Of a DNA stretch of 64,000 bases, positions 1,375-52,200 are shown in pieces. The notes below the pieces were generated by a model. That model was not told where the DNA came from. It ran no database searches and saw nothing but the letters and a program-made list of their open reading frames with translations. Origin of the DNA: Opisthocomus hoazin (Eukaryota; Chordata; Aves; Opisthocomiformes; Opisthocomidae); NCBI RefSeq assembly GCF_030867145.1, contig NC_134419.1, forward strand, positions 77,935,403 to 77,999,402. The letters are read 5' to 3'. Position 1 is the first letter of the stretch, and each line of letters opens with the position of its first letter. The position numbers and the translations under genes were made by a program.

Positions 1375-2028
1375 ACAGAATCACAAAATCACAGAATGGT
1401 AGGGGTTGGAAGGGACCTCTGTGGGTCACCCAGTCCAACCCTCCTGCCGAAGCAGGGTCACCTACAGTAGGCTGCAGAGGACCTTGTCCAGGCAGATCTG
1501 GAATATCTCCAGAGAAGGAGACTCCACAGCCTCCCTGGGCAGCCTGGGCCAGGGCTCCGTTACCCTCAGAGGGAAGAAGTTCTTCCTCATGTTCAGCTGG
1601 AACTTCCTCTGCTTCAGTTTGTGCCCATTGCCCCTTGTCCTGTCGCTGGGCACCACTGAAAAGCGCTTGGCCCCGTCCTCCTGACACCCACCCTGCAGAT
1701 ATTTATAAGCATTTATTAGGTCCCCTCTCAGCCTTCTCTTCTCCAGGCTGAACAAGCCCAGCTCCCTCAGCCTCTCCTCGTAGGAGAGATGTTCCAGTCC
1801 CCTCATCATCCTCGTAGCCCTCCACTGGACTCTCTCCAGTAGCTCCTCATCTTTCTTGAACTGGGGAGCCCAGAACTGGACACAGCACTGCAGATGGGGC
1901 CTCACCAGGGCAGTGTAGAGGGGAAGGAGAACCTCCCTCGACCTGCTGGCCACACTCCTCCTAATGCACCCCAGGATGCCATTGGCCTTCTTGGCAAGCA
2001 GAGCACACTGCTGGCTCATGGTTAACCT
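1375..2028 (-). mobile_element. CR1 LINE fragment (3' end, reverse transcriptase remnant)
   Basis: The 3' tail on the left reads as inverted ATTCTGTGATT words followed by the CR1 3' UTR. The minus strand then encodes the C-terminal part of the ORF2 reverse transcriptase, including [11 protein letters not shown] and [16 protein letters not shown]. It is truncated at its 5' end after the region encoding [15 protein letters not shown]. An open minus-strand frame (1462-2325) fuses this to unrelated flanking sequence, which is fortuitous. Confidence 0.95.
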
Positions 2029-3781
2029 CAACTTTAGATGGATATAGTCATACTGCATTAAAACCCCCAGCATTGTTAAGGATCTCATGGCTGAGGACCA
2101 TTTCATTTGACACGTTAATCGGAAAGCGTTCGTCTCCGTGTTTGCAGAGTTAGTGGGGGAATGAATACATGATGAGGGTCTGCGTTGCCACCACACCGTT
2201 TGCACTGGGTCATCACGGCTCCTCCCCTGCAGCGCAGACAACAGGGTGGGGACGAGGTCCCGGCCGCTGGCACCTGCCTTTGTGCTGCTGCAGGACAGGA
2301 TTTCTCCCTGCAGGTTTGATGGCACAAACGCATGGCCTTTTCCAAGCGAACCAGCTTGATGCGGCTACGCCTGCGACAGGATCAGAACCTGCCTGTTCGG
2401 TTGATGCCAGTAGCTTTTCACTTGATGGCAGTACATTTTTTTTTTTAATGTGTTTCCAATAAATGCAGAAAATTTATTTTGTGCAAATCATGAAAAAAAA
2501 TCAGTCTTACTCGTTAGGTGTCCACAAGGGTCACACCGGTCACCATGAAAATACTGGCATTTTCCAATGGTCACAGAAAAAGATGTTTCAGTAGTTTTGC
2601 ATTACTTTTGTGTAGTGACCCCGAGGCAGTTGTATATTTTCCTCAATGCCTTGTTGAATCCAGTAATGGTCAGTAACAGCAGCAAGGTAAGTACTTGTTC
2701 ATGACTAACTGAACAAAACTGGGAAGAAAAAGCAAACACAACCGCTCTCCAGGGAATCCTGTCTCGGAGTGTATGAAAACTCTTATTTCTGAGAGTTGCT
2801 TTTAAAATTCTTGACCTTCAGGAAATGATTCAATCTTGCCATAAATAAACAATGACTTTCACATGCCAGCGAGGGAGAGTGAAGAGATTCTTCTCGTTCT
2901 GTTAATATTTTTATGCTGTGGAGTTGCAGAGGCACAAGTCCAGGACTGCCGAGCCTGGGCGGGAACGCAGTACGCCTGACGTGGAGCCGTGCAAAAAATC
3001 CATTAAAAAAATGGGGCCATTTCTCCTTTTCCTATAAGAAGCTTCCCCACATTCCCTATCTCACCTTGGGCAGGTTATTTACTACTTCTGCACTCGGGTC
3101 CTACATCCAGAAAATACGAATTTATCCTTTTTTTTATTCCTCTGTTCCATTGATGTGACTTTCTGCCAGCCTGGCTGGTACGGGCTCTCTATTTGGGATT
3201 TATACGGTGTCGAGCCGGTGCAAATTAATTTGGTGTGTCTGCGCTACTGTGGTGCAAACAATAACTAATCGTGGGAACGATGGATAACCAGCGTGTGATG
3301 GCACGAGGGTGGAGATTTGCAGAAGAGAAAGGACAGGCTAAAAGTGGATCTCTGAGCAATTTCCGTATTTTGGGGGTGTTTTTCTGCCCTGCCTTCTTGC
3401 ACAAGGAGAAAAGTTACCAGCGAGATAAAAGCCTCTGGCGTATATATATATTGCTCTGTCTTCTTTTTGATGATCACAAGCTTAGCTTTTTAAATTTGGT
3501 GAGGCTGGCGATGGGAGACGTGGTGCTTTTTTCTGCACGAGCTCAGAGTCGTTGCAGGTTAGCATTCCGTAATTATTTTTGTCATAAAGATGAATGCCAT
3601 CCTAAAAAAGTTGGAAGCTAACAGCACCTCGGCTTTGATATATGAATATTACCACTCTGAATGCTGGAATGGCATTATAGATGGTTTATGGTTTTATGAC
3701 TATGAGACATTTCTTAGTCTCTGATTCAGAAATACATTTCCTACACATTTTAAAGCAACTTCTAGTCTTTGACATCTTTTC

Positions 3782-30800: not shown

Positions 30801-32882
30801 TAGGATGGGTGACTTGGAATCGGGGTTTTAGTGACTTGAGCTAGACTATGGAGCAAGACTATGGAGCAAGAGGTGCCCCACCACCCTGCGATGCTCCTCT
30901 CCGGGGTACACAGCCCTTCCTCCTGCCCGCCTCTCTGCTGGGCTCCGGTGCCGCACAACAAACCCCTCGGACGAGGATGGGTGGGAAGAGCATAAATTTG
31001 TCACTGTGGGGAAGGGAAGGTGGTGCTCTGAAGGAAAAAAATAGCCTTTGGGGAGCTTGGGAGTGAGAATTTGGGCTTTGTGTAACATCAGGAACGTATT
31101 GCACCTGATGCACGTTTTTCTCAGAGGTAACGTCCTTGACTCTTTCTCTGTGAAAAATGCTTCAGTGAGCAATTCATCTTGTAGTTTCTTGCCAGTTACA
31201 CTGTATACAGCAAAACACGATCTAAAATAAATAAATCTGATATGCTATAAAGCCCAGGTACAGTCGTCTTCCTTTTCAAAGTGAAATCACAGGCCTGGCG
31301 AAGCATGAATATGATTTCAAGTTGATTTTGTATCACTGGATTCTTTGCAGGAATTGCATATTACAACGTGCATCAAATTAACATGCTCTGCCCTCTGGGA
31401 TTATTTGTTATTCACTTTATTATTTTTATTTGTATCTTTGCACTGCAATGTATAATAAGGTGTCTACAAGAAAAGGCTGGAAAGAGAAAAGACTTTTTTT
31501 TGGTGGTGTTAGCAAATTCGGAGTTAGGATATAGTGTAATAATCTGTTAAAAGACTGTCAGTTTGGTCATTGTGGTTAAGCTGCTGAGCCTAGAGCATCA
31601 TTTATAATGCTAATATATGAGGAGCACATTAACAGTATATGAAACACCAGTGTTGGCTGCAAACCTCTTTTCTAGATCATTTTTCTGTGAGTACGATACA
31701 TCTCTGTACCGTAAGTACTTCTAGATGATTAGTTATATCAGTTGCCTGTTGTAGTTTTTTCTGCTTTCAGATTCCCACCCTGCGCATTGATTAGGCAGTT
31801 ATAGCTGTCATCAGTGCGCAAAATATTATGTCAAAAATCCTCCTTTCATTTAGGCTTTGTTCAGGGTCAAAGAGCTTTGCGGAGTAGCAAAGCCAATTTT
31901 GCAAGAAAGCAAATCCCCCTTACACCGTACTAAATAGAAGGCGGCCACTAGTAGAAGGTCATCAACTTACCAATATTAGCAGTACTCTGCGTCAGTGAAA
32001 TCAGGTTGGATTTTCTTTCAATTCTTCATTTGTTTTGTTGAAAAAATGAAGAGTTAAAGGTGAGTGGTTGAAAGTACAAACACTGTCAAGCAGATTTTTG
32101 TAAGATCTCAAGTGACCAGCAAAATCCTTGTGAAATTTGACTCAGTCTGGGGAAAACAGGTTAGTCTGCGCTTGAAACAATGCCAGAGCTAGTAAATCAA
32201 ATGCAACTGCTTGGTACTAATGAAAGTGGACTTCAAAGAACCATAAATAACCAGCAGAAAATGGAACTGTCTCTCCCATCTTATAGCTCAAGTTGCCCAA
32301 AAAGGAAGCCAAGAGCTTCCAGCGCTCAGCTGTTAACACCTTTTCCTCCAAGAGACCAGAGAGGTGTTTCCAAATGATGGCCAACAGCCCAAGGAGTGGT
32401 GGTAAGGAATAAGCTCTGCTGTTATTTACTTTATATCGTCCTTCAGCAGATTACGAAAACTACTGGACACATCCTGCTCTCTCAGGTGGTGAGCAGATCT
32501 CCAGGAAAAGAACGGAGAGCCAAGGATGCTCAAGCCTTATTTCACGGGGCTTTGGTTGCCACGTCCTTTTCCTCCAGGTACTCCCTGAGCACCAGCTGCA
32601 GGAATGAGGTAGGTATTGTACATATAAGACTACCAAAAAGAATTTTTCCATTATTTTGGGGTGGAAATCAGAATGGTGGACAAGCTGGCGTCCCTGGCTG
32701 AGCAGGCATCCAGCTCTCTGTGCTGCCCAGCTCACGGGCTCCTGACTGGCAGCGTACCTCCTTCTCCCACTCTTTGATAGATGGGCTTTCTGGCTGGAGA
32801 AACAAATGGGTTTTGTCCTTGGTCCAGCATAGCAAGCCTCAGCCAATCTGGACATCGATCACAGCATGATGTAAACACTCAC
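27801..32882. other. Non-coding stretch, candidate enhancer segment near 28.2 kb
   Basis: No gene recognised. A duplicated 13-base POU/homeodomain-like word lies at 28168 and 28229. A tandem 13-base duplication (AGACTATGGAGCA) lies near 30843. Confidence 0.5.
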
Positions 32883-33320
32883 AAGGATGATGAGAGGACT
32901 GGAACATCTCCCCTATGAGGAGAGGCTGAGGGAGCTGGGCTTGTTCAGCCTGAAGAAGAGAAGGCGGAGAGGGGACCTTAGAAATGCCTACAAATATCTG
33001 AAGGGTGGGTGTCAGGAGGATGGGGCCAAGCTCTTTTCAGTGGTGCCCAGTGACAGGACAAGGGGCAATGGGTACAAACTGAGGCACAGGAAGTTCCGTC
33101 TGAACATGAGGAAGAACTTCTTCCCTGTGAGGGTGATGGAGCACTGGAACAGGCTGCCCAGGGAGGTTGTGGAGTCTCCTTCTCTGGAGATATTCAAGAC
33201 CCGCCTGGACAAGGTCCTGTGCAGCCTGCTGTAGGTGACCCTGCTTCAGCAGGAGGGTTGGACTAGATGACCCACAGAGGTCCCTTCCAACCCCTACTAT
33301 TCTGTGGTTCTGTGATTCTG
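32883..33320 (+). mobile_element. CR1 LINE fragment (3' ORF2 and 3' UTR)
   Basis: It encodes [20 protein letters not shown] and the following ORF2 C-terminus without a stop until the normal end (33232-33234), then the 3' UTR and an ATTCTGTGGTTCTGTGATTCTG tail. It is 5' truncated. The frame is intact over this stretch, pointing to a fairly young copy. Confidence 0.95.
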
Positions 33321-35628: not shown

Positions 35629-36174
35629 AGAGAATCACAGAATCACAGAATAGTAGGGGTTGGAAGGGACCTCTGCGGGTCATCTAGTCCAACCCCCCTG
35701 CCGAAGCAGGGTCACCTACAGCAGGCTGCACAGGACCGCGTCCAGGCGGGTCTTGAATATCTCCAGAGAAGGAGACTCCACAACCTCCCTGGGCAGCCTG
35801 TTCCAGTGCTCCGTCACCCTCAGAGGGAAGAAGTTCTTCCTCATGTTCAGACGGAACTTCCTGTGCCTCAGTTTGTGCCCATTGCCCCTTGTCCTGTCAC
35901 TGGGCACCACTGAAAAGAGCTTGGCCCCATCCTCCTGACACCCACCCTTCAGATATTTGTAGGCATTTCTAAGGTCCCCTCGCAGCCTTCTCTTCTTCAG
36001 GCTGAACAAGCCCAGTTCCCTCAACCTCTCCTCACAGGGGAGATGCTCCAGTCCCCTCACCATCCTCGTAGCCCTCCACTGGACTCTCTCCAGTAGCTCT
36101 TCATCTTTCTTGAACTGGGGAGCCCAAAACTGGACACAGTACTCCAGATGAGGCCTCACCAGGGCAGTGTAGAA
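35629..36174 (-). mobile_element. CR1 LINE fragment (3' ORF2 and 3' UTR)
   Basis: The inverted tail AGAATCACAGAATCACAG at the left is followed by the 3' UTR and an open minus-strand frame encoding [20 protein letters not shown] and the rest of the ORF2 C-terminus. It breaks off near 36174, after which unique GC-rich DNA begins. It closely resembles the 32883 copy in inverted orientation. Confidence 0.95.
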
Positions 36175-36781
36175 GCTCCGTGCTTGAACCGCGTGAAGCC
36201 TTCCAGCCTGCTCAGCCCCAGCCCTTGTGCCACAGCGGCTCTGGTGAGACGGGGCGGGCAGGGTCTCGCCTTGGCCAAGCCGTGGCCGGCTGTGTGGAGC
36301 GGTGTTTGCCGCTTCGCCATTCAACGGCAGGACCCACAACGCTAGAACGGCCCGTCGGTGGGCCAGGCGACCTACTTGCGATGGTTGCTTCACGGAGAAA
36401 CTTGAAGCGCTTGCGTGTGGTAAAGAACTGAGCTGTTTTGCTGAGTTTTATCACTGGCCAGCTGCTGATGCTAAAACCTCGCGTATTTGAGAAGCCTTGG
36501 GTGAAAAAGGCTGCGAGAGGCCAGGGAGGAAGACTATTGCCTTCCTCACCTTAACTTCACATTAACTGCAGAGCATGGAGCAGGGCTACAGAGTTACCCT
36601 GTTACTGGAAGGTATTTTGTCCACTGGTACCATCATCCTCATGCCCTACTCACAGGAGCTGCCTGTACACCCTCGGCTGACATCCCACATCCTCCCTCCA
36701 GCTCTTTGCCAGCGTGGTCAGCAGTTTTACTCCTATTTTAATAAAGTAGGAATAGTTAAATACAGATACAACTATACACCT

Positions 36782-38562: not shown

Positions 38563-39446
38563 GCCTTGTTGATGACACAGAACTGGGAGGAGTGGTGGAT
38601 ACACCATCAGGCTGTGCTGCCATTCAGCGAGACCTGGACAGGCTGGAGAGCTGGGCAGAGAGGAACCTGATGAGGTTCAACAAAGCCAAATGCAGGGTCC
38701 TGCACCTGGGGAGGAACAACCCCAGGCACCAGTACAGGCTGGGGCGGACCTGCTGGAGAGCAGATCTGCGGAGAGGGACCTGGGAGTGCTGGTGGACAAC
38801 AGGTTAACCATGAGCCAGCAGTGTGCCCTGGCTGCCAAGAAAGCCAGTGGCATCCTGGGGTGCATTAGGAGGAGTGTGGCCAGCAGGTCAAGGGATGTTC
38901 TTCTCCCCCTCTACTCTGCCCTGGTGAGGCCCCATCTGGAGTACTGTGTCCAGTTCTGGGCTCCCCAGTTCAAGAAAGATGAGGAGCTGCTGGAGAGAGT
39001 CCAATGGAGGGCTACGAGGATGATGAGGGGACTGGAGCATCTCTCCTAGGAGGAGAGGCTGAGGGAGCTGGGCTCGTTCAGCCTGAAGAAGAGAAGGCGG
39101 AGAGGGGACCTGATAAATGCTTATAAATATCTGCAGGGTGGGGGTCAGGAGGACGGGGCCAGACTCTTTTCAGTGGTGCCCAGCAACAGGACAAGGGGCA
39201 ATGGGCACAAACTGAAGCAGAGGAAGTTCCAGCTGAACATGAGGAAGAACTTCTTCCCTCTGAGGGTGACAGAGCCCTGGCCCAGGCTGCCCAGGGAGGC
39301 TGTGGAGTCTCCTTCTCTGGAGATATTCCAGCCCCGCCTGGACGCGGTGCTGTGCAGCCTGCTCTGGGTGACCCTGCTTGGGCAGGGAGTTGGACTGGGT
39401 GACCCACAGAGGTCCCTTCCAACCCCGACCATGCTGTGATTCTGTG
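38563..39446 (+). mobile_element. CR1 LINE fragment, longest copy (reverse transcriptase C-terminal half)
   Basis: About 880 bases cover the RT palm region (GATGACACAGAACTGGGAGG encodes a ...DDTELGG... segment), the [17 protein letters not shown] segment, the linker and the C-terminus to the 3' UTR and tail. The coding region is broken: there is a frame change near 38750 and a TAG at 39047-39049 where related copies have TAT in LSYEERL. It is 5' truncated and not capable of encoding a full protein. Confidence 0.95.
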
Positions 39447-39699: not shown

Positions 39700-40200
39700 A
39701 GGAGGGGGTTTCCTCCCGGCAGCCCGTAGCAGCGTTTGCCCACCCCCTCGGCACGGAAATGCTCCCCGAGGCCCAGCCCCGGGGAGCTGCCGGCCGCGGC
39801 GGGGCACCGGGACGGGGACTGGGACCGGGACGCAGCCGCCGGAGCCGCTTCCCCCGTCACCGCGACGCCGCTGCAGGGCCGGGAGACACCGCTAGATGGC
39901 GCCGCCGCCCCGCCAGGAGCGCAGCCCGGCCGGCGTGACGCGGCGGGCGGGTGTGGCGTCACCGGGCCGCGGCCGCCGGAGAGCGGGAGGGAAGCGGTGA
40001 AAAGCTCCCCGTTCCGTCACGAGAAGCGTGTTTCCCCCGGGCTGGGCTGTCGCAGAGGGGCTGAGCTGCGCTGGGGTGCTCCTACATTGGCCTTGCCGAG
40101 GAGCAGGAGCACCCGCGGTCAGCCTGGAGGTCGATGCGCTGCTGGGTGTCCGCGGGCGGTCGATAAGCGGGGGGGAACGGAATGGCTTCCAGTTTAGTGT
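39700..40200. promoter_or_regulatory. Orphan CpG island with CRE-like half-sites, 3 kb upstream of FOXI
   Basis: This is dense CpG sequence without a recognisable protein. It holds four TGACG/CGTCA half-sites (39855-39859, 39936-39940, 39957-39961, 40015-40019), a YY1-like AGATGGCG near 39893 and a GGGACN hexamer repeated four times (39809-39832). Open frames on both strands are long only because GC-rich DNA has few stops. It could be a distal promoter or upstream first exon of FOXI, a divergent non-coding RNA promoter, or an unmethylated regulatory island. Confidence 0.55.
39809..39832. repeat. GGGACN hexamer, four copies
   Basis: GGGACG, GGGACT, GGGACC and GGGACG lie in tandem inside the orphan CpG island. 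Confidence 0.85.
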
Positions 40201-40650
40201 GTGGGATCGGGGTGTTCCCCTGAACTGGTTTCACTGAAGTGGCAGGAACATCTCGCCTTGCGCTTCTGAGGTTTGAGGACAGATCTTCTCCAGATACGCC
40301 CGCAGCGACTGGTGTTCGGATGAACGCCCCGTCAGCCGTCTCAATCGGCCATTTCTAACGCTGCAGCGCGCACGTAGGAACATTCAGGGCAAACTTTACA
40401 TTGGCGGGACAACGGTTCTCAGCTCTTCAACTCTTTTTTTCCGCCAGTGAAGACGCGAATGCCTGCAATTCCAACAACTGGCTCATTTTTCCTTAGGCGG
40501 TTTCGAAAAGCACGGACAGGTGCCCCTCGCCGCACGGCCCGAAGCTCGGCGGACTAAACCTTTCCTGGCACGTTATCGCGATATGGCAGAGTGCCAGGGC
40601 AGGGGCCTGTGGCGAAGCTGGGCTGCCCACGTGCTGCTGCAGCCCTGCTT

Positions 40651-40965
40651 CACAGAATCACAGGATGGCAGGGATTGGAAGGGACCTCTGTGGGGTCACC
40701 CAGCCCAACCCCCTGCCCAAGCAGGGTCACCCAGAGCAGGCTGCACAGCACCGCGTCCAGGTGGGTCTGGAATATCTCCAGAGAAGGAGACTCCACAGCC
40801 TCCCTGGGCAGCCTGGGCCAGGGCTCCGTCACCCTCAGAGGGAAGAAGTTCTTCCTCGTGTTCAGCTGGAACTTCCTCTGCTTCAGTTTGTGCCCATTGT
40901 CCCTTGTCCTGTCACTGGGCACCACTGAAAAGAGTCTGGCCCCGTTCTCCTGACACCACCCTTGC
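40651..40965 (-). mobile_element. CR1 LINE fragment (3' end)
   Basis: The inverted tail CACAGAATCACAGGATGG leads into the 3' UTR and then an open minus-strand stretch encoding the last part of ORF2 ([15 protein letters not shown]). It is truncated at about the [10 protein letters not shown] segment. It is near-identical in type to the 39,173-39,446 part of the copy just upstream. Confidence 0.95.
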
Positions 40966-41046
40966 TTCCGCGACGGCTGTGGCCCGGGAGTCCTGGGATG
41001 GCTCCGACAGCGTGTAAGGACAAATCCTTGCCCTGGCGTAAGCCTC

Positions 41047-41061
41047 TGTGTGTGTGTGTGT
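41047..41061. repeat. (TG)7 microsatellite
   Basis: Uninterrupted TG dinucleotides just downstream of the CR1 copy at 40651. Confidence 0.9.
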
Positions 41062-41415
41062 CTAAATGGGTTATAACGCTCATGCTCCAGGGCAGAAGCT
41101 ATCCGCTAACCGCCTTCCATTAGGAAGAAACCCAATCCCCCAAGTGTTTCTCGCATCCCTGCAGCGTCTGCTCCGAGCCCCTCGCGGAGCGAGCGCCCTG
41201 GCTCAGCCAGACCTGTCGTGAGAACGCCCGCGCACGCGAACAGCAGGGCTGAGAAAGAAGCAGTCCAGACGTCAGAACGATACTGAAAATGTAAAGATCA
41301 GTTGACACAGATGTACTCGCACACCGGCATTCCCAGACCCAAAATACAGACCGACAGCTTAGGAACGGGAGATGGGTTTATTTGCACACGATGCCACCTG
41401 AAGTGTTTTAATTAA

Positions 41416-41482
41416 TGGGGGGTTGGACTAGATGACCCAGAGAGGTCCCTTCCAACCCCTACCATTCTGTGATTCTGTGAAT
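41416..41482 (+). mobile_element. CR1 LINE 3' tail remnant
   Basis: GGGGGTTGGACTAGATGACC through ATTCTGTGATTCTGTGA: only the last 65 or so bases are present. Confidence 0.9.
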
Positions 41483-41725
41483 TCCCTGCCACAGATCAGG
41501 ATCCCGTTTGTGTTCACCTGTATATAGCCATAGCTACTGACAAAGTCATGCCTTTTATCTCTGTTTCTGAGGAATGATCTCAAATTTCTAAAAGTCAGAC
41601 ATACTCTATAGCAAAAACCTGTACAGAAATGCAACTTAATATCAATTTTTCATCAAATCATGACAAGTCTTCTATGAAAGACGAAAAACTTTAGATTATT
41701 TTCTTCTATTTTAACATCAACAGGA

Positions 41726-41758
41726 GATCCAACCCAAACTGTTCTGTGATTCCATGAA
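41726..41758 (+). mobile_element. Possible CR1 3' tail remnant
   Basis: AGATCCAACCCAAACTGTTC followed by TGTGATTCCATGA matches the end of an older CR1 family (CCAACCCAAACCATTCTATGAT). Only about 30 bases, so chance is possible. Confidence 0.4.
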
Positions 41759-41984
41759 AACCTCACCCAAAACTCTGGCTTTACAGGGGAGTAAGAAATG
41801 CAGAAGAAAAGTTTTTTACAGGACCTCATGCATATGTCAAAAAAAAAAAAAAGTGAAAGTGGCTTTTTGTGGCTGCAATATTCCCCCAATATTGGTGGAA
41901 TGGTTCGCCACATGGTTTGCCACCGACCAAAGCATGGTGCAAACTTTACTTCACAGCCAATGCCAGCATCACCAAAAGAACAAA

Positions 41985-42175
41985 CTCCTTTCCGTCCCTT
42001 GCAACGCGGCGTGCGAGCGCGGGACTCCCTCGCGGGTTTCCTCGGCGTGCGAGGGCTCTGCCGGGGCTGTGAGCGCGGGCGAGCAGCACGGCTTTCGGTA
42101 AGCGGAGGGAGGAGGAGCTCCGTCCGAGTTACGGAGCTCAGGGTTAGGAGCTCGTATGCGCACGTAGGACCACCT
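41985..42175. promoter_or_regulatory. Small CpG-rich segment
   Basis: A short CpG-dense stretch (many GCG/CGCG words) sits in otherwise AT-rich DNA about 1.1 kb before FOXI. It contains a good splice-donor match, TTTCGGTAAGC, near 42095 on the + strand. It might be an alternative upstream non-coding exon of FOXI, or simply an isolated GC-rich spot. Confidence 0.3.
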
Positions 42176-42424
42176 TGAGGGGTTTTGCAGATGGGAAATT
42201 TGAATTTCCGGATGATGATAATTTTTGTTTCGGGCTTAAAGGAAATGTGGGAGGGCATGTTGATGATTTCCTGCAATGGTATTTATTTGCTGGAAACCAA
42301 TGCTTGCTGAACAAGGGCCAGCTGGACCTGCCAGGCTGCTGTACCTACAGCTCCTAACCAGAGGTGTCACGCAGGGAAGGGGCTGCTCAGGTCAGTTGGA
42401 ATCCAGAAATTGAAAGGACGGTCT

Positions 42425-42720
42425 AGTGAGGCGGGTGTTGGTCACTTCTCCCAATAACTAGTGACAGGACAAGAGGACATGGCCTCAAGCTGCGTCAGGG
42501 GAGGTTTAGATTAGATATTAGGAAAAATTTCTTTACTGAAAGAGTGGTCAGGGATTGGACCAGGCTGCCCAGGGAGGTGGTGGAGTCGCCATCCCTGGGG
42601 GTGTTCAAAACCGTGTGGATGTGGCACTTGGGGACATGGTTTAGCAGGCATGGTGGGGTTGGGGTGACAGCTGGACTTGATGATCTTGGAGATCTTTCCC
42701 AACCTTGAGGATTCTGTTCT
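42425..42720 (+). mobile_element. CR1 LINE fragment, second subfamily, next to FOXI promoter
   Basis: It shares GTGAGGCGGGTGTTGGTC, the GGGGAGGTTTAGATT segment and the CTGGACTTGATGATCTTGGA end with the copy at 36782. It ends in GAGGATTCTGTTCT about 540 bases before the FOXI start codon and directly borders the CpG island. Its frame is broken. Confidence 0.92.
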
Positions 42721-43192
42721 ATAAGCAGGGAGGTTTCGGCTTTGCTGCCGGAGCTCTGGTGTCTCCCACACGGTGGGCTCAGGTCACCCCACAACCGCCG
42801 CTGCAATCTGCACGTCAAACCCTGAAACCACCGAGCCCTGGACACCCCTGGTTCGCTCTCCGGGCTCGGCGGGACGCCGGCGGAGGGGGGGTTTAGCCAC
42901 CTTTTTCCCCCTTCTCCGGACTCGCTGGCGGTTTCCACGCTGCGGCTCTTGCGCTGGGGAGGGCGCAGCCGGCGCTGCCAGCCGGATTTATCCCAAAACC
43001 TCACTGTTTGCCCAGGAAATTTTTCAGCTTTTCCCGCGGGGGGGCTGTGGATGCCCGATGCGGGGGGTCCCGCACTTGCCAGGGATTCCCCAAGCCGGGC
43101 GGAGGGGGGGGGGGGAGGGGTTTCCCCGCGGGGCGCGGACACGCGTGGGGCGTGGGGGGGGGGGGGGGATGGGGGGAGGCCCGTGCGGGGTG

Positions 43193-43263
43193 GGAGCGGT
43201 GTTTAATTACCGGAGCGGTGTTTAAATAAATAGCGGAGCGGTGCTGAAGCGGCCGGCCGCACC
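43193..43263 (+). promoter_or_regulatory. FOXI core promoter candidate: TATA-like element within a triplicated GGAGCGGTG motif
   Basis: GGAGCGGTG occurs three times, at about 43193, 43212 and 43235. The first two copies continue as TTTAATTACC and TTTAAATAAATAG, and the third as CTGAAG. The second copy supplies the best TATA-like sequence, TTTAAATAAATAG at 43221-43233, about 30-40 bases before the ATG at 43264. If it is used, the 5' leader would be very short, so a start site further upstream in the CpG island is also possible. The TAG of this element is in frame with the ATG and blocks any N-terminal extension. Confidence 0.5.
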
Positions 43264-43693
43264 ATGCAGACCTTCGGGCCGCCCGCCGGGCCGCCCCCCC
43301 CGCTCCCTCCCCGCGCCCGGGACCTGCTGGACGTGGCGGTCCCCCCCGGCCCCTTCCCTCCGGGCCGGCCCCCGCCCGTCCCCAGCCCCTTCCCGTGGCT
43401 CGGCGGCCCCGCGGGACCCTGCCCGGTGCCTGCGGGGCGGGGGTGGCCGGCGCCGACCCCGCAGCCCGAGTGCCCGCGCCCGGCCCGGCCGCCCTACTCC
43501 TACTCGGCGCTGATCGCCATGGCCATCCACAGCGCGCCGGGCCGCCGGCGGACCCTCCGCCAGATCTACCAGTACGTGGCCGAGAACTTCCCCTTCTACC
43601 AGAAGAGCAAGGCGGGCTGGCAGAACTCCATCCGCCACAACCTCTCCCTCAACGACTGCTTCAAGAAGGTCCCGCGGGACGAGGACGACCCGG
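43264..43693 (+). CDS. FOXI2: FOXI-class forkhead transcription factor, exon 1 (FOXI2-like)
   Basis: This exon encodes residues 1-143 plus the first base of codon 144 of a nuclear, sequence-specific DNA-binding protein. Residues 1-74 are a Pro/Gly/Ala-rich low-complexity N-terminus. The forkhead domain starts at [14 protein letters not shown] (75-88), continues through [12 protein letters not shown] (101-112) and reaches recognition helix 3, [15 protein letters not shown] (119-133), followed by [11 protein letters not shown], which is typical of FOXI proteins. The start is well supported: the ATG has A at -3 in a GCCGCACC context, and an in-frame TAG lies at 43231-43233, 33 bases upstream. 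The exon ends at a GTAAGG donor (43694) in phase 1. FOXI proteins act in ectodermal placodes, ionocytes and the inner ear (family knowledge). The helix 1-2 loop is Arg-rich (GRRRTLRQ), which is unusual. FOXI class is near certain. The choice of FOXI2 over FOXI1/FOXI3 rests mainly on exon 2 and is moderate. Confidence 0.93.
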
Positions 43694-43768
43694 GTAAGGG
43701 GACCCCCCCCCCCCAGGCTGACCCTGCCGCGACGGGACGGCAGCATCCAACGCGGGGTGGGGATGTCC

Positions 43769-43780
43769 CTTCCTCCCTTC
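43769..43780 (+). repeat. Direct repeat CTTCCTCCCTTC, left copy (putative target-site duplication)
   Basis: This matches 45186-45197 exactly and lies immediately outside the left end of the intronic insertion. The sequence is pyrimidine-rich, so part of the match could be chance, but both copies abut the insertion boundaries precisely. Confidence 0.7.
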
Positions 43781-45185
43781 TGATAGAGGGGATTGTAAGA
43801 AACGTGAAACTATAACAAATAAGCCTTAATATTTTCTAGTTTTCAGTAGTCTTTAGTACTGTAACTTGTATTCCTGCATGCCTCGTGATCTAGCGATGTA
43901 ACCGTTACGCTAATCCCTGCTTTCTCGTTAAGGAATGTAGTGGAAGGTGATTCGAAGATCCGGTAAGAAAAACCTAACAGCACAATGTATACTGTTCAGC
44001 AGGGATTCTTTATTGCGGCGCCGGGCACACGGGGGATTTCTCCTCCAAACGTGCGCGCCAGACACCCTGTTACTTCAGGTTAAATACAATCACACAGGTA
44101 ATTATTCATTATATTTCTAGGAACTAATTAGCATATGTGAATATCTTTCACGCATGTCTGTTAGTATCTTTGGGTGGTCTTCGGGGGTCCCAAGATGAAG
44201 GCCCATCCTCTTCATCACGCTGTTCACTGATTGACATTTGTTTTCTGCGCAAACTCAGTTCTAGCATCACGTCCATCGTGTCCTTCAGGTTGTTTGGCTC
44301 TGGTCTTGTTGCTCTCTTGGTGCCTCCTTATCTCTGTAGCTTAGCGCATTTGCCCTCCCAAGGCTGAGCTGTCTGGAGTAGAGTTATTTAGGAGTCTCTT
44401 TTATCCCACAATTATCCCAATTATTTGCTGAGAATCAAGACCACTTTTGTTTCACTTAATTATTTTGTCTAACGACTAAGTGATAGCTTGTGCCCATGTC
44501 CTTCCACTACATTCCTTAATGAGAAAACAGGGATTAGTGTAACAGTTATATTGTTAGATCACTATGCATGCAGAAATACAAGTTACAGTACTAAAAACTA
44601 GAAAATATTAAGGCTTTTTGTTATAGTTTCACATTTCTTACAGTCCCCTCTATCAAAGGACATGGGCGCAAGCCATCACTTAGTCATTACACAAAATAAT
44701 TAAGTGACACAAAAGTGGTCTTGGTTCTCAGCAAATAATTGGGATAATTGTGGGATAAAAGAGACTCCTAAATAATTCTACTCCAGACAGCTCAGCCTTG
44801 GGGGGGCAAAGCTCCAGAGACAAGTAGGCACCAAGAGAGCAACAAGACCGGAGCCAAACCACCTGAAGGACATGATGGACACGATCCTAGAACTGAGTCT
44901 GCGCAGAAACAAACGTCAATCAGCGACCAGCGTGATGAAGAGGATGGGCCTTCATCTTGAGACCCCCGAAGACCACCCAAAGATGCTAACAGACATGCGG
45001 GAAAGATATTTACAGATTCTAATTAGTTCTTAGAAACATAACGAATATTTACATATGTGATTGTATTGAACCTGAAGTAACAGGTTTGGAGGAGAGCTCC
45101 CCCGTGTCCCGGCGCCGCGATACGGAATCCCTGCTGAACGGTGTGCGCTGTGCTGTCGGGTTTTTCCTACCGGATCCTCGAATCG
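43781..45185. mobile_element. 1.4-kb inverted-repeat insertion in the FOXI intron (A-B-A'-B'), unclassified, LTR-like
   Basis: The insertion has four blocks: A (43781-43947), B (43948-44499), A' (44500-44655, inverted A) and B' (44656-45185, inverted B). Arm similarity is high: 44157-44222 and the reverse complement of 44928-44993 differ at only 2 of 66 bases. B is about 20 bases longer than B' owing to small indels. The left end begins TGATAGAGGGG. The B block begins TGATTCG, and its inverted copy forms the right end (...CGAATCG), so the ends approximate the TG...CA of LTR elements. B' on the + strand carries a TATA-like GGGATAAAAGAGAC near 44752. A 12-base direct repeat flanks the whole block, as expected of a target-site duplication. 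No protein-coding region is visible inside. It could be two solo-LTR-like copies joined in inverted, circularly permuted order, or a foldback element. I do not recognise the family. Confidence 0.8.
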
Positions 45186-45197
45186 CTTCCTCCCTTC
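45186..45197 (+). repeat. Direct repeat CTTCCTCCCTTC, right copy (putative target-site duplication, part of exon 2 polypyrimidine tract)
   Basis: This is an exact copy of 43769-43780, immediately right of the insertion and continuous with CTCTCTCTCCGCAG at the exon 2 acceptor. This copy is therefore probably part of the original intron end. Confidence 0.7.
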
Positions 45198-45211
45198 CTC
45201 TCTCTCCGCAG

Positions 45212-45423
45212 GCAAAGGCAGCTACTGGACCCTCGACCCCAACTGCGAGAAGATGTTTGACAATGGCAATTTTAGGAGGAGGAGGAAGAGGAGGGCCGAG
45301 GCCAGCGCGCCCGAGGTGGCCAGGGGGAGTGGCGGGGACCCCCAGGCCTCCTGCCCGGCCGGGATGCGGGGTCCCCCCGGTGCCGGTGCCCCCCTCTACG
45401 GCCGTGCCGGGGCCCAGGCGTGA
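45212..45423 (+). CDS. FOXI2: FOXI-class forkhead transcription factor, exon 2 (short C-terminus)
   Basis: This exon completes codon 144 and encodes residues 145-213, ending at TGA 45421-45423. It begins after a pyrimidine-rich CTCTCTCTCCGCAG acceptor. [20 protein letters not shown] (145-164) is the wing 1-2 part of the forkhead domain, nearly identical to the FOXI pattern. The basic run RRRRKRR (165-171) is the likely nuclear localisation and DNA-backbone contact. AEAS after it is closer to my memory of FOXI2 than of FOXI1 or FOXI3. Only about 40 residues follow the basic run, whereas FOXI proteins usually have well over 100 there (usual total about 300-400). The final LYGRAGAQA before the stop resembles, weakly, the conserved FOXI end that I recall as LYSREGTEV. 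This suggests internal loss of the activation region rather than a simple premature stop. A frameshift or assembly error in this GC-rich exon is the main alternative. Confidence 0.88.
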
Positions 45424-45970
45424 GCGGAGCCCCTCTCCCTTTGATGCCCTCGGAGATGTGTTGCTGCAGCGCTCAATGTGCGTTGTCACCCATCCCTACG
45501 AACGCGGGGAGGGGTGCGGAGGTAGGGGGGTGCGGGGGTGGGGGTGCGCCAGCCGTCGGGGCTGCCCGCGGGCTCCGCTTCTCCCTCTGTCCCTTCCCAC
45601 TGACCCCTCGGCAAGGCTTCCCCCCCCCCCTCCCAACCCCCGGCTCTCCGGGCTGGCCCCCTCCCCTTTCCATGGCCGCGGGACAGAGCGGAGCCATCGC
45701 TGGGTGCAAGGGTCCTGCCACCCACCGCCCTCCTGGGTGGGCTTGGGGAGGTGAGTGAGTGCCGGGGGCCGCGGCCGGGGTGGCTCTGGGGGGGTGAGTG
45801 CCAGGGGTCGTGGCTTTGGACCCCCCGGAGATGCCGGGAGAGAGCCTGGAGTGCAGGGAGGGATGGAGGGATGCTCCCTGACCCCAGCGGGGACCGGGCT
45901 GGCGTGGGGGGCACCCAGTCCTGCCATCCCCCCACAGTGTTGCTAAATAAAACCCCTGTTATTTCTCCAA
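45424..45970 (+). other. Probable FOXI 3' UTR
   Basis: GC-rich sequence runs from the TGA to just beyond the poly(A) signal at 45946. It contains closely spaced G runs near 45501-45545 that could form a quadruplex in the RNA. Several long open frames cross it on both strands, but they reflect the high GC content, and I see no conserved protein in them. Confidence 0.55.
45946..45951 (+). terminator. Poly(A) signal AATAAA for FOXI
   Basis: A canonical AATAAA in CTAAATAAAACCCC lies about 520 bases after the FOXI stop, where GC-rich sequence gives way to ordinary composition. A T-rich stretch (TTATTTCTCC) follows as a possible downstream element. Confidence 0.6.
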
Positions 45971-46262
45971 ACGTGCAAGATCACCTTCGCCTCGGCCCAC
46001 CGAGCTGGGGATCATCTTTACGAAGAGCTTCAGGTTTAATCGGGCGTCTGAAATGAAGCTGGGTCCCTGCTGAGGGGTTCTCTAACGGCTCGTTTTCCCG
46101 CTAACCGCCTCGACGGTGGCGTGCGGGGAGCGGGGGGTCCCGGCACACGCAGCAGCCCCTCCACGCACCCACCGCTTCGTGATGTCACCTCTCGTTCCGC
46201 CGTGGCATCCACGCGGGCCGGCGGTTGCTGCGGGTTTTTCGTGAAGCTTTGGGAAAATGCAG

Positions 46263-46288
46263 TGTGGCTGCGGCGGACTGCAGCCACA
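46263..46288. other. Perfect 9-bp inverted repeat (hairpin)
   Basis: TGTGGCTGC at 46263-46271 pairs with GCAGCCACA at 46280-46288 across an 8-base loop. It lies in a CpG-rich stretch 300 bases beyond the FOXI poly(A) signal. Confidence 0.6.
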
Positions 46289-47890
46289 GCGGTTATTTTT
46301 TTATTAAATACCTGAGGTGGGACGGTTCTGGCCGCCCCTGCTCGCTTGTTAATGGCTGGTTCCCTGCTGCTGCTTTCTGGTCGTTCTGTGCAGGTCCTGG
46401 AGTTTGAAGGAAACGAAATTGTGAGCTGCATAAACTCTCGCCTTTCTTTTCTGACTCTCTGTCTCCTCCAGCCCGCTCTTCCTCGCTTGTGGCAAAAAAA
46501 TACAGCTTCCTTAAATAAAAAGCTGAAAATGTTGTTGTTGTTTACAAGAAAACAACCCCAAACAGAAGCCTGTATAGTGCAGACTTTTTGTGCATTATAA
46601 GGGCACCGTAAAGCTCCTCAAAGTTCCTTTAAAGCGAGCGGGACAGAAAACCCCATGAACAGAACAAGCTGTCTGAGAACCTAAAATGTGTCAGAGACAC
46701 CAGTCCCTGACAGAGGGGAGGAATCAGCTGTAGAAGCCATGTTTTTCCTGACCCAAAATGTCATAAATAGTGTTACAAAGTGTGTGGTTAACAAATATCC
46801 GACCTTAGCAGACCTGGAGTGAAGGACAGAGCAAACAGAGCTTGTCAGCCAATCTCCTGTCTAGGTTTGTGTAGCCAAATTTCTTTTTTATTACTCTCCT
46901 ATTTGAAAAAAATCTTCGTACAAGAAAAATCACTATTCTGAAATGGCGTTTAAAATATTTCAGACAGCATCTTTATGTTGTTATTTTCCAGGGCTATTGA
47001 GTAAGAAGATGCTTAAATCATGACCCCTGTTTCCTTTTTAAAGTGGGTGAATCCTGTTCAAGGCTTCAAGCTCCTGTTTCAGCTGGGCAACCTTGAGCTG
47101 CAACATTAAAGGGTGCGGGGAAAGTTATTTTTGCAACAAGTTGCGTTTTTAAGCTGCTGTTTTCCAGGTTGCTGAGGGCTGTGGTGAGCAGGTTGTGTGG
47201 AGAGTGAACAGGGGAGATGATGGCCTTGTATCTTAACCAAAAACAAACGAAAAAAGAAAGCCTGTTGATGGATTTCTTGGTGCAAATAGCTGTGTGTTTC
47301 ACTGGCATTCACCTTTCAAAAAGCTGCCCTTGGACTGTGCTTGCCGAGGAGCGGGCACACACCTTGAAATGGGAAGGATGGAGAAACTCTTGTCCTGGCA
47401 GAGCCTGAGGACCCTTCCTGAGACGCAGCGAAGACACTGACCTCAGAGCAGGGGAAGAAATGATAAATCATTTCAGCCAACCCACATTGTCTTCTGCTTC
47501 AGGATACAAAGTCCTGGATCCAAGCGCAGGGGCTGAACTGTGTGTTCTCACCTTGCGACTGTTGGCCCCAGGACGGCGTGCCATCGCGGGACCCTGAGAA
47601 ACGCAGCGAAACACAGGAGAATGCTGTGCTTCAGGCTTTCCCAGCATGGTCTTTGTCAGCAGCTCAGCTGGGCCCTGCGCTGGGGAAGTCCATGAGTAGC
47701 TCCGTGAAAGGACCATGCTGCATCGCCAGAACTTTGCTTCAGGGACCATTTAAGATGCTGATTCAATGTGTACATGGAGGTTATAATTTGTATTTCTTTG
47801 TGCTTCTGTTGTACTCTAATTCTATTTTTGTGTACTGGAAAGAAAGGGAGGATTTTTTAAAATAAATCAAACTGGAGCAGAGAAGTTGCA

Positions 47891-47926
47891 ATCCTTCTAG
47901 TGATCCTTCTAGCAATCCTTCTAAGC
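47891..47926. repeat. Three tandem copies of a 12-base unit
   Basis: ATCCTTCTAGTG, ATCCTTCTAGCA and ATCCTTCTAAGC lie end to end and share the first nine bases. No coding context is supported. Confidence 0.85.
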
Positions 47927-48477
47927 AAAAACATTGCTTGAAGGAAGAACTGCATCAGGTAACGAGTCTGTGGGTTAACTGGGCAGCTGCAGGCTTTAGT
48001 GAAAAGGGTGATGGGATGCTGGGGTCCATGCTTGCTTGGGCCAGACTCCCGTGGAAGCCCAGAAATAGTCTCATCTTGTTCTCGGAGAACAACTTCTCCA
48101 GACTGGCAGCCCACGGATGCTTTGCTGAGCCGTGGCAGCCCCAGCCCCACGCAGCGCGGTGGGACACATCGGGTGCAGCCTGGCCATTGCACTGCCCCGA
48201 GCTCCACGCTCGTCCTACCGGCCATGGCTGTGATGGGGTTTTGCTGGAGGTTTAGGGTGAGTTGTGGTGTAGAGAACTGGAGACCTCTGAGCAAATGACC
48301 TGGCTGCTGCCTTCCAACAGGTCCCTGCCCTTACTGCTGCCAGGAGGGACTGGCTGGAGGGCATCTCGCAGGGTATCCCAGGGCTCCTTGGGCGTCACTG
48401 GAGTTCTAGAAACTGAACCGCAGTAGGCTGATGGCTCCTTAGCCGTCTTTCCCAGGGCCTTGTATGAATCACTGCTG

Positions 48478-49276
48478 ATTGATAGACCTGGGCAAGCTGG
48501 AGAATTAGGCCCATGTGAACCTCATGAGGTTCAACAAGGCCAAACATAAGGTCCTGCACCTGGGTCAGGGCAGCCCCTGGTATTAATACAGGTTGGGGCA
48601 TGAAGGGATGGAGAGCAGCTCTGAGGAGAAGGACTTGGGGTTGCTGGGAAGCTCAACATGACCTGGCAGTGTGCACTGGCAGCCCAGAAGACCAACCATC
48701 TCCTGGGCTGCATCCCCAGCAGCGTGGGCACAGGGTGAGGGGGAGGATTCTGCCCCTCTGCTCCACTCTGCTGAGACCCCTTGGTAGTCCTGCGTCCAGC
48801 TCTGGAGCCCTCAGCACAGGACAGAGCTGGAGCTGTGGGAGTGGGGCCAGAGGAGGCCCCAGCAATGATACGAGGGCTGGAACCCCTCTGCTGAGAGGAA
48901 AGGCTGGGAGAGCTGGGGCTGCTCAGCCTTGGGAAGAGAAGGCTGCAGGGAGACCTTATTGAGACCTTCCAGTACTTAAAGGGGGCCCATAGGAGGGATG
49001 GGGACAAAATTTTTAGCAGGGCTTGTTTTGACAGGACAAGGAGTAATGGTTTTAAACTAAAAGAGGGGAGATTTAGATTAGATGTAAGAAAGACACTTTT
49101 TACTCTGAGGGTGGTGAGGCCCTGGCACAGGTTGCCCAGAGAGGTGGTCGATGCCCCATTCCTGGGAACGTTTCAGGCCAGGTTGGATGTGGCTCTGAGC
49201 AGCCTGGTCCAGCTGAAGATGTCCCTGCTCATGGTGGGGGGGGTGGCCTAGATGGCCTTTCAACTACACTGTTTCT
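48478..49276 (+). mobile_element. CR1 LINE fragment, third, more diverged subfamily
   Basis: It contains CATGAGGTTCAACAAGGCCA, GGTCCTGCACCTGGGTCAGG, CTCAACATGACCTGGCAGTG and later TGACAGGACAAGGAGTAATGG, the order expected in CR1 ORF2 and 3' UTR. It ends near GGCCTAGATGGCCTTTCAA without the repeated tail. Many small indels break the frame, so it is older than the 32-41 kb copies. Confidence 0.9.
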
Positions 49277-52200
49277 TTATTAGGATAGACTTCAATGTCA
49301 TAAAAAAGCCATGATTTCTTTAGAGCAATGTGTTGACCCTTGTAAGAAAGAGAATGGACTGTCATATAGTCATAAATCATGTTTTTGGGACCAGGCAGTG
49401 ATGTGTTGCTCACCAGGTTAAGCCATGGCGGGTGGGTTAGTAGCTAAGGGGCTGAACATTTAATTTTTGCACTGTGTTTTGAGCCAAGCTTCAGGTCTGA
49501 AGCCCAGCGGGTTTGGAGGTCTCGCCTCTACTCTTAGCAGACGATAGTTGTCTTCACAAAGAACAACCACACATCGCTGGCTTGTTGTCCCTGGCAGTTT
49601 TTCCTCATGAAACGGGTAGGACAAAGCTTGGGGAGTGCACGGTGGCCTCTGGCTCGTTGCGTGCACACCGTGCCTGTGAGGTGTCTGCTGAATTAACCCA
49701 GAGGAATGGGAAAGTCTGATGGCGAGTTCCCAAAACCACGTGCTGTCTGTCCCTGAAGTTCTCGCTGGCTAAGCAGGGAAAGACAGACAGTAGCTGAATA
49801 GGAGAGGCAGAATTTTCATTCCTTAAGAATGCTCCCAAATCTTCGTCTATGAATGATTTTACTGATCTTAATTCCTTACATTTTAATTTTAGTTATATTT
49901 TAATCTAATTGCAAAAGCAATTATTCTCTCTTTTTAGAGTGATTATTGCTTAGGAGAAGCCCAGAATAAATCCAAACCGAATGTGACAAATCAAATTTAT
50001 TTCTATTTTTTGATTCCATTTTCCATCATCTCTGATATTTCCATGCAATTCGTTCTTGCTAACCATTATGATTTCCCAGAGCTTTACTGTATTATGACAT
50101 TGCTTCCCAGGATTTCTTGTGGCAAAACAGAGTGGGGACTATCAGATTTTATACAGCTGTACAGTATGGGCAAAATCAATACCTAATCCAAGTTTCCACT
50201 TTCTAGTCACTGCCTCGGAGTCAATAGGGCAAGGGCTGAAGGGAAGCACGGCGTATGTACTCATTACATAAAAATAACAAAAAATTCATCTTTTTCAACA
50301 GGTTTCCTGTTGTATAGAAATTCACACTGCAGTGTCAGAGGAAAATACATGGGCAGATACACAGCAGCAGTAGGTTTGATGTGATTGACTGGTAACCCGT
50401 AGGAATTCATCTCTGCCCACCGTGCCTGCTGTCTCAGGCTGGTGCTGACTGAGCTGTGCCCAGGGGGCACCCAGGGACCAAACGCTGCTTCTGCGGGCAG
50501 GGATTCGCACGACATCGGCCCCTCTCGCTGTGCTCCCAGAGGACATCCCAGCGTCGCATCCCGGCCCCGAGCATCTCCCCGATGAGGGTCCCGGATTTTA
50601 CTGCTGGGGGGGAGAGGGTAAGACAGGGATGGAGAGAAATGGTACTCAGACAGTGCAAGAGTCCAACCCCCCACCCAGTGTGAGTTCAGGGTGCTCGTCC
50701 CTGTTGCGGACAGCCAGATCTGGGATTTTCATGGCACCCAAATTTGCTCGGAGCGGTGTGATGCTCTGAGTAACACCACGAGCTGACTCAAAGAGGGAGA
50801 CGCTGGTTGTGGAGGGGACCAGTTCCAGTCAGTGCTGAAGGAAGTATTGCAGAAGTGGGGGTGGTAGAGGGGAAATGATATAATGAAATAGTGCAAAAAC
50901 TGAAGTATAATAATCTTACTAGAAGTGTGACTGTCTCTCATTGGCTTTAAGGTCGTATTGCCCTAGTAGGGACCACAAACTCTCTAGTCCTGCCTGCAGC
51001 AGTAGCGTTTACACCGCCCAACTCGTATCTACCAAAAAGAATTAAGCTGTTCCTTTCACCAGATCAAACTGACTTTTTTTTTTCTTTCAGAATGACAATA
51101 CATGACTTGGCTATTTTTTCTTTTAAGGAAAACACTTCTTTATCACCAGATAGAGGAAGGGAAATTTTTTTTATTTTAGGATGATTCCTGCTGTGCTGGC
51201 CGAAAGATTTCATACTATTATTGCTGTTAACAGCTTTGTTCATTTATGACTGTCAGGTTTTGATAGAGCTGAACGATGTTATTTTTCATTGTGGGCTTAA
51301 CTTGCAAGGTGTTGCTGCTCATGCGGAGGCCAAAGACACTTTAGGCTTGTGAGTTTTCATTACTTTGTTAAGATGGAGTCACTAATTTTTCTTCAGACTA
51401 AGGAAAGCCAATGCAGAAAACGTTTCAGCTGCTGTACAGTCAGTCGCAGCACTGCTATCTGATCACTTCACAGCAGACGATCAGCACAGACTCTTTGCTG
51501 GGTTAGCCATGAGTTTTTAAAATCAGCTTTGTTCTTTGCTGTTCATATCTAGCTTTGTTTTTCCCTTGAAGTGTTTTGCAAAGGATCAGTAAATCTTACC
51601 AGGAATTTTATGAAATGTCTTATAACTCTACCCTGGAGCTTCTCATTTACATTAAGACAAATTTACTAAAGTCTGACTGTAATTAATATCTGTTTAAAAG
51701 TCCTTCACAGTGCCCAGTTGTGTAGGTGAGCATTCTGCAAGGGGGATTTGCTCAGATGCTGTCTCGTGGAACATAAAGCCAGGAGCAGGAGGAACTGACA
51801 GCTCAGCTCCATTCACTTTTTCCTCTGTATGGTTTCTGAAAGAAAAGCACCATTAAACAAGCAAACAAAAAAGTCCCACGATAAAGTTGTTTGGTGGAAA
51901 AAATATTCTTTCCCATAAGTGTCTCATCTGTCAGTAGAATAGCTGTGTTTGTACAAAAATGTGTGTATCCATACGGAGGTTCACCCACAGTTACTGACGA
52001 GGGGGCTTGCTTCCAGGGAGACCTCGCGATGAATTGATGCTTCAGCGCAGCCCCTGCTTATTTTTCTCTTAGACCCTATAGGTTTTGGCTCGCACTCAGT
52101 TTTTGTACAAAGCCATTTATCACGTCACGTTTGACTGCTGCCTGCTCTCTGCTGGAGTGGCCGGGGCTGCCCAAGGCGCCCATTAACTCCTGCCCCAAAG

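Follow-up and report, generated by a model that had tools for sequence, protein, structure and literature searches.

Short FOXI2 tail in the hoatzin and other birds: probable internal deletion with a worn FOXI C-terminal end

FOXI forkhead factors have roles in the development of placodes, ear and pharynx. In mouse Foxi3, the forkhead domain alone gave no activation, deletion of residues 1–128 had no significant effect, and deletion of residues 350–399, which hold the 9aaTAD SMVNSLIYP, cut activation by more than half, according to the excerpt available of PMC6250667. Deletion of residues 207–399 abolished activation and also nuclear localisation, for which RRKRRRR is the signal (same excerpt of PMC6250667). 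This larger deletion overstates the part of the tail in activation, because nuclear localisation is lost as well. For Foxi2 itself, the accessible portions of two reports describe the chicken gene as restricted to non-otic ectoderm and up-regulated by FGF (PMC3552847) and the Xenopus protein as prebinding ectodermal regulatory sites before Ep300 (PMC12599972). At human 10q26.2, one SNP has both NPS and FOXI2 listed no more than 500 kb away (PMC5264598, in part). The surroundings of vertebrate GnRH3 include a block with DOCK1, FOXI2, CLRN3 and PTPRE (PMC6135963, in part).

In this study, a stretch of 64,000 nucleotides (the window) on contig C6 of the 1.48-Gb genome of Opisthocomus hoazin was analysed. 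The two-exon gene in the window is FOXI2 of this species. Its features are as follows.

43264..43693, forward strand: FOXI2 exon 1, coding for residues 1–143 and the first base of 144; N-terminal region and the larger part of the forkhead domain
43694..45211, forward strand: FOXI2 intron, GT...AG, interrupting the forkhead domain
45212..45423, forward strand: FOXI2 exon 2, with the forkhead end, basic run, short tail and stop; the hoatzin NCBI record has the same protein end
45274..45294, forward strand: basic run RRRRKRR, residues 165–171, counterpart of the mouse Foxi3 nuclear localisation signal RRKRRRR
45295..45393, forward strand: 33-residue body of the short tail, of low complexity, varying with gaps among birds
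45394..45420, forward strand: probable residual FOXI C-terminal motif LYGRAGAQA, residues 205–213
45946..45951, forward strand: AATAAA, candidate polyadenylation signal about 0.5 kb past the stop, a sequence match only

The joined exons 43264–43693 and 45212–45423 were translated into 213 residues with zero internal stops. The GT donor of exon 1 lies at 43694 and the AG acceptor ends at 45211. An in-frame stop was listed ahead of exon 1 at 43231–43233 in the open reading frames, and the exon 1 start is comparable to MHAFGPP in other birds. The first-pass annotation had described a complete FOXI-like forkhead domain followed by about 40 residues after the basic run. Both statements held: Pfam PF00250 was matched at residues 75–159 over profile positions 2–87 of 88 (132.8 bits, cut-off 27), a complete winged-helix domain that places the protein in the forkhead family, and the tail beyond residues 165–171 counted 42 residues, the last nine being LYGRAGAQA. 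The long C-terminal activation region that characterises FOXI proteins was absent from these 42 residues. The NCBI hoatzin FOXI2 record (P0001) was 100% identical to the product over 69% of the product length, with the same C-terminus and 42 exon 1 residues missing. An in-frame GT...AG stretch of 126 nt in exon 1 (43339–43464) is omitted from that record, which may be an alternative splice or a prediction fault. In the AlphaFold model of P0001 (mean pLDDT 67.6), forkhead blocks reached 93 and tail blocks 34–50; model confidence in the tail was low, mostly below 50.

The intron consists almost entirely of two LTR-like elements of the same family in opposite orientation, an assignment read from their ends. 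One element is apparently nested in the other between 43776 and 45184, the outer at 43776–43947 and 44656–45184 and the inner at 43949–44659. Their arms are about 86% alike, and the intron transcript could form a long hairpin. Rfam gave zero matches within the window. Fragments of open reading frames resembling reverse transcriptase, which we take to be of CR1 type, were found elsewhere in the window.

1465-2364, reverse strand: CR1-type retroelement reverse transcriptase-like fragment
32875-33231, forward strand: the same
35719-36447, reverse strand: the same
38576-39436, forward strand: the same

Two FOXI paralogues were found in the hoatzin genome. The FOXI3-like gene (contig C5) codes for 431 residues with the end NSLIYTRDGTEV / FTVNSLIYTRDGTEV, and the FOXI1-like gene (contig C23) for 375 residues with the end NTLYSREGTEV; both have long tails ending in GTEV. 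The window gene and both paralogues are split within the forkhead domain at DPG/KG. The tree was built from 43 rows trimmed after the basic run, with 21 of 40 inner branches open and the bootstrap unsettled. The 11 neognath FOXI2 rows grouped as a clade (100/100) that contains neither FOXI1 nor FOXI3 rows, deeper forks being open. A single clade of 23 amniote FOXI2 rows was not rejected (p-AU 0.141), and the union of neognath FOXI2 rows with sauropsid FOXI3 was rejected (p-AU 0.009). The paleognath FOXI2 records of rhea (P0078, possibly an incomplete model) and tinamou (P0144, partial) have differing ends and clustered with a turtle row on long branches. The NPS mature peptide SFRNGVGSGIKKTSFRRAKS, searched by pattern, was located after a KR site about 50 kb upstream of FOXI2 on the same contig and strand. 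The NPS coding end is at C6:77928083, some 7.3 kb before the left edge of the window, so the hoatzin gene has the NPS neighbour of FOXI2 known from human 10q26.2. In the 104 kb examined, a search for PTPRE by its PTP signature was negative.

Tail length was compared among birds and other vertebrates. The tail beyond the basic run was 19–48 residues long in all 30 bird FOXI2 records among the best 120 matches listed (P0001-P0025, P0029, P0072, P0078, P0091 and P0144). This set includes a record named hypothetical (P0012), one named FOXI1 (P0091) and the partial tinamou record, and its gull and parrot tails contain apparent extra predicted exons. The first protein search accepted lengths up to 1.75 times the query; therefore, a full-tailed bird FOXI2 could have qualified. 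Duck and owl records named Forkhead box I2 in UniRef (P0124 and P0160, tails 55 and 70) were excluded because their forkhead and N-terminal sequences are of the FXI1C/FOXI3 type, as were P0038 and P0125, neither of which is named FOXI2. Non-bird records named FOXI2 had tails of at least 100 residues in 68 of 79 cases among the matches listed; 61 of these 68 had a FOXI-like end, with tails of 107–159, and an earlier hand-picked non-bird set (n = 11) had tails of 116–159. The 11 tails below 100 were those of alligator (95, including extra residues), caecilian (61), Chelydra (66), Thamnophis (59), hagfish, two fishes and four mammals, and look mostly like odd or partial models. The short FOXI2 tail is a variant common to the birds examined and not hoatzin-specific, so the earlier idea that shortness is peculiar to this protein was not borne out. 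A normal-length C-terminus in close relatives, named beforehand as evidence against a deletion, was found in none of the 30 bird records. Since all 30 are short, a gap or frameshift in the hoatzin assembly is not the explanation.

Internal deletion with retention of both ends, as proposed in the first-pass annotation, is the best reading of the short tail; a FOXI-like end in several bird orders and a short alligator tail with a near-normal end agree with it. We give a probability of about 0.75 to an internal FOXI2 deletion in the bird line, with both ends kept, the end motif worn and little or no activation left. An in-frame loss in the lineage leading to birds would have removed the central part of the C-terminal region from exon 2, with the basic run retained on one side and the last residues on the other. 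The terminal motif would then have worn from (V/L)Y(S/G)REGTEV to LYGRAGAQA.

Constraint was assessed by comparing the hoatzin protein with 12 other bird records, chosen largely for carrying the end, so that part of the agreement at the end follows from the choice. The forkhead domain was identical at 80–87 of 90 positions in the 11 records that were comparable. The 33-residue tail body had 12–26 identical residues and up to 15 gaps across the 12 records, and the last nine residues were identical at 6–9 positions in 11 of the 12 and at 3 in Melanerpes. These comparisons point to constraint on the forkhead domain in birds and perhaps on the FOXI2 end in the lineages carrying it. An alternative that is compatible with a deletion is decay, by which bird FOXI2 would be under relaxed constraint, with a functionless stub, and heading to loss. 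Foxi2-null mice were reported to develop normally, without apparent morphological phenotype, in the excerpt of PMC6250667; the end is altered in 19 of the 30 bird records; and the N-terminal region is shorter in the hoatzin than in condor or stork. However, the open reading frame and the forkhead domain have been kept, and the expression of chicken Foxi2 in non-otic ectoderm and its up-regulation by FGF (PMC3552847, in part) also argue against decay. We consider decay possible but doubtful.

A second alternative to the internal deletion is an unrelated new C-terminus, produced by a frameshift or early stop after the basic run, whose likeness to the FOXI end would come from GC-rich coding for glycine, arginine and alanine. 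The hoatzin tail is indeed GC-rich and low in complexity. The last nine residues share L, Y, R and G with LYSREGTEV directly before the stop, as previously noticed, and LYSREGTEV is a genuine FOXI end, present in 13 of 142 reference proteins. A profile was made from the last nine residues of these 142 other proteins, which all have tails of 100 residues or more, show 72 distinct ends and were taken without regard to the end. Equal scores against it were reached by 0.24% of 200,000 shuffles of the hoatzin tail (p 0.0024), and four identities to LYSREGTEV by 0.055% of tail shuffles. The nine residues are the top-scoring 9-mer of the tail and sit exactly at the stop, which argues against a new C-terminus. 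In a six-frame scan of the window, LYGRAGAQA was the sole match before a stop to a FOXI-end pattern that was kept loose so that it would qualify. Set against this, 10 of 1342 ends of open reading frames in the window scored as high, so the motif from the hoatzin alone is suggestive and not decisive.

The end was further compared among birds. The form [YF]GRxGxQx closes 11 of the 30 bird records and is absent from 19, a count in favour of a new C-terminus; three of the 19 end in a worn variant with YG. Neither form occurs in galliforms, hummingbird, owl, bustard, gulls, parrot, several passerines, rhea or tinamou. The shuffle p for the end was below 0.01 in 9 of the 30 records, and the last nine were the best 9-mer of the tail in 13, two of them gulls that end otherwise. 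Against a new C-terminus, condor, falcon, golden eagle, stork, pigeon and swan keep 7–9 of the nine residues. In a MAFFT alignment of 24 whole proteins, bird and FOXI ends fell into register, an outcome that end-to-end alignment favours in any case, and the alligator motif was not set at the end.

Crocodilian FOXI2 was represented among the best 120 matches listed by one record alone, that of Alligator mississippiensis (P0148). This record is one predicted model that begins inside exon 1, and its gap could be a mispredicted intron. Its tail is short, with CFSRFT joined to VSGRVYGREGTE; the record reads ...SPAGAERGPCFSRFTVSGRVYGREGTE, followed by another 39 residues. Tortoise FOXI2 reads ...ERSPCFSGF, about 80 residues and then NFSVNHLIYSRDGTEV, and in global alignment the alligator tail was without just this interval of about 80 residues. 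The alligator tail was trimmed after GTE by analogy before testing. Against tortoise, gibbon and snake, 0 of 3000 shuffles aligned as well. Equal scores against the alligator motif VYGREGTE were obtained in 1 of 200,000 shuffles for hoatzin, which speaks against a new C-terminus, and in 1 for condor, 8 for swan and 11 for sea eagle. For whole tails aligned globally to alligator, 2 (hoatzin), 5 (condor), 12 (swan) and 39 (sea eagle) of 3000 shuffles were as good; falcon and golden eagle (308 and 296 of 3000) were not significant. Without the last nine residues, the tails aligned only weakly with alligator (157 hoatzin, 241 condor and 51 swan of 3000 shuffles), a point in favour of a new C-terminus. 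Directly against the hoatzin tail, shuffles as good numbered 2 of 3000 for tortoise, 0 for gibbon and 26 for snake.

The alligator tail looks intermediate between the full and the bird forms, and the first deletion step perhaps preceded the bird-crocodile split; this date rests on one predicted alligator model, whose gap could be a mispredicted intron. The motif is convincing because other birds and the alligator record agree with it. LYGRAGAQA is probably homologous to the FOXI C-terminal end, YxR(E/D)GTEV, which is worn and not intact in the hoatzin. The first-pass annotation had allowed for a chance match through GC bias. For the hoatzin alone, the evidence against this is weak; with shuffles, ends of open reading frames and the six-frame pattern taken together with the other birds and the alligator, chance is unlikely. 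We judge an unrelated new C-terminus to be quite improbable.

A collapsed GC-rich segment in the hoatzin genome or a C-terminus in a missed exon is highly improbable: gull, parrot and alligator records contain residues resembling extra predicted exons and 42 exon 1 residues are missing from the NCBI hoatzin model, but all 30 bird records examined are short, which also makes a single-species annotation fault unlikely, the hoatzin tail and stop are contiguous, and no other FOXI-end-like match before a stop was found in the window. A hidden long tail was rejected, since tblastn of long FOXI tails against window positions 40001-50000 with filters off gave no in-frame FOXI tail among the matches listed. 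The best match listed (E about 3e-6) lay in exon 1 and its surroundings. Many of those listed were low-complexity, and they were taken for compositional ones in GC-rich stretches or wrong frames.

The internal deletion has consequences for function. Hoatzin FOXI2 is without nearly all of the region matching the C-terminal transactivation stretch of mouse Foxi3. The protein would enter the nucleus, bind forkhead sites through its intact domain and activate only weakly, if at all, since the part of mouse Foxi3 that activates falls in the lost tail. By analogy with Foxi3, the protein is probably produced and located in the nucleus, with little power to activate. A dominant-negative or purely DNA-binding action, as suggested in the first-pass annotation, is plausible in view of the Foxi3 deletions but hypothetical, and competition with FOXI1 and FOXI3 is speculative. 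In an extended form, which we regard as unlikely, the deletion would have turned archosaur FOXI2 from an activator into a compact DNA-binding-only restrainer of FOXI1/FOXI3 targets in non-otic cranial ectoderm, with the remade YGRAGAQA selected for a new contact in some birds. A binding-only FOXI2 would be informative because Xenopus Foxi2 prebinds its sites before Ep300. Birds with one FOXI member minus its activating region would offer a natural domain-deletion experiment. The chicken FOXI2 record is also short-tailed, and if the reading is true, chick Foxi2 results are not readable as those of a full activator. A literature search of titles and abstract openings, covering few subscription journals, found no description of the short bird tail.

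Compared with known systems, hoatzin FOXI2 shares its forkhead domain, basic run and intron position with the FOXI1- and FOXI3-like genes of the same genome, which differ in their full tails and GTEV end. FOXI2 of mammals, turtles, snakes and sharks has the same forkhead domain and basic run, and human FOXI2 also has NPS nearby; their tails, at least 100 residues in 68 of the 79 non-bird records, contrast with 42 in the hoatzin, and their ends take forms such as LYSREGTEV in place of LYGRAGAQA. The N-terminal ANPYLWL of the condor and Carettochelys FOXI2 records is worn in the hoatzin to SPFPWLGGP. Alligator FOXI2 resembles the hoatzin protein in its short tail and YGR-G motif; unlike it, the alligator record keeps PCFSRFTVSGRVYGREGTE and has 39 residues beyond, probably a misprediction. 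In mouse Foxi3, the last residues (IYP) of the 9aaTAD SMVNSLIYP would correspond to bird LYG, whereas the SMVNS part and the region before it are absent in hoatzin FOXI2.
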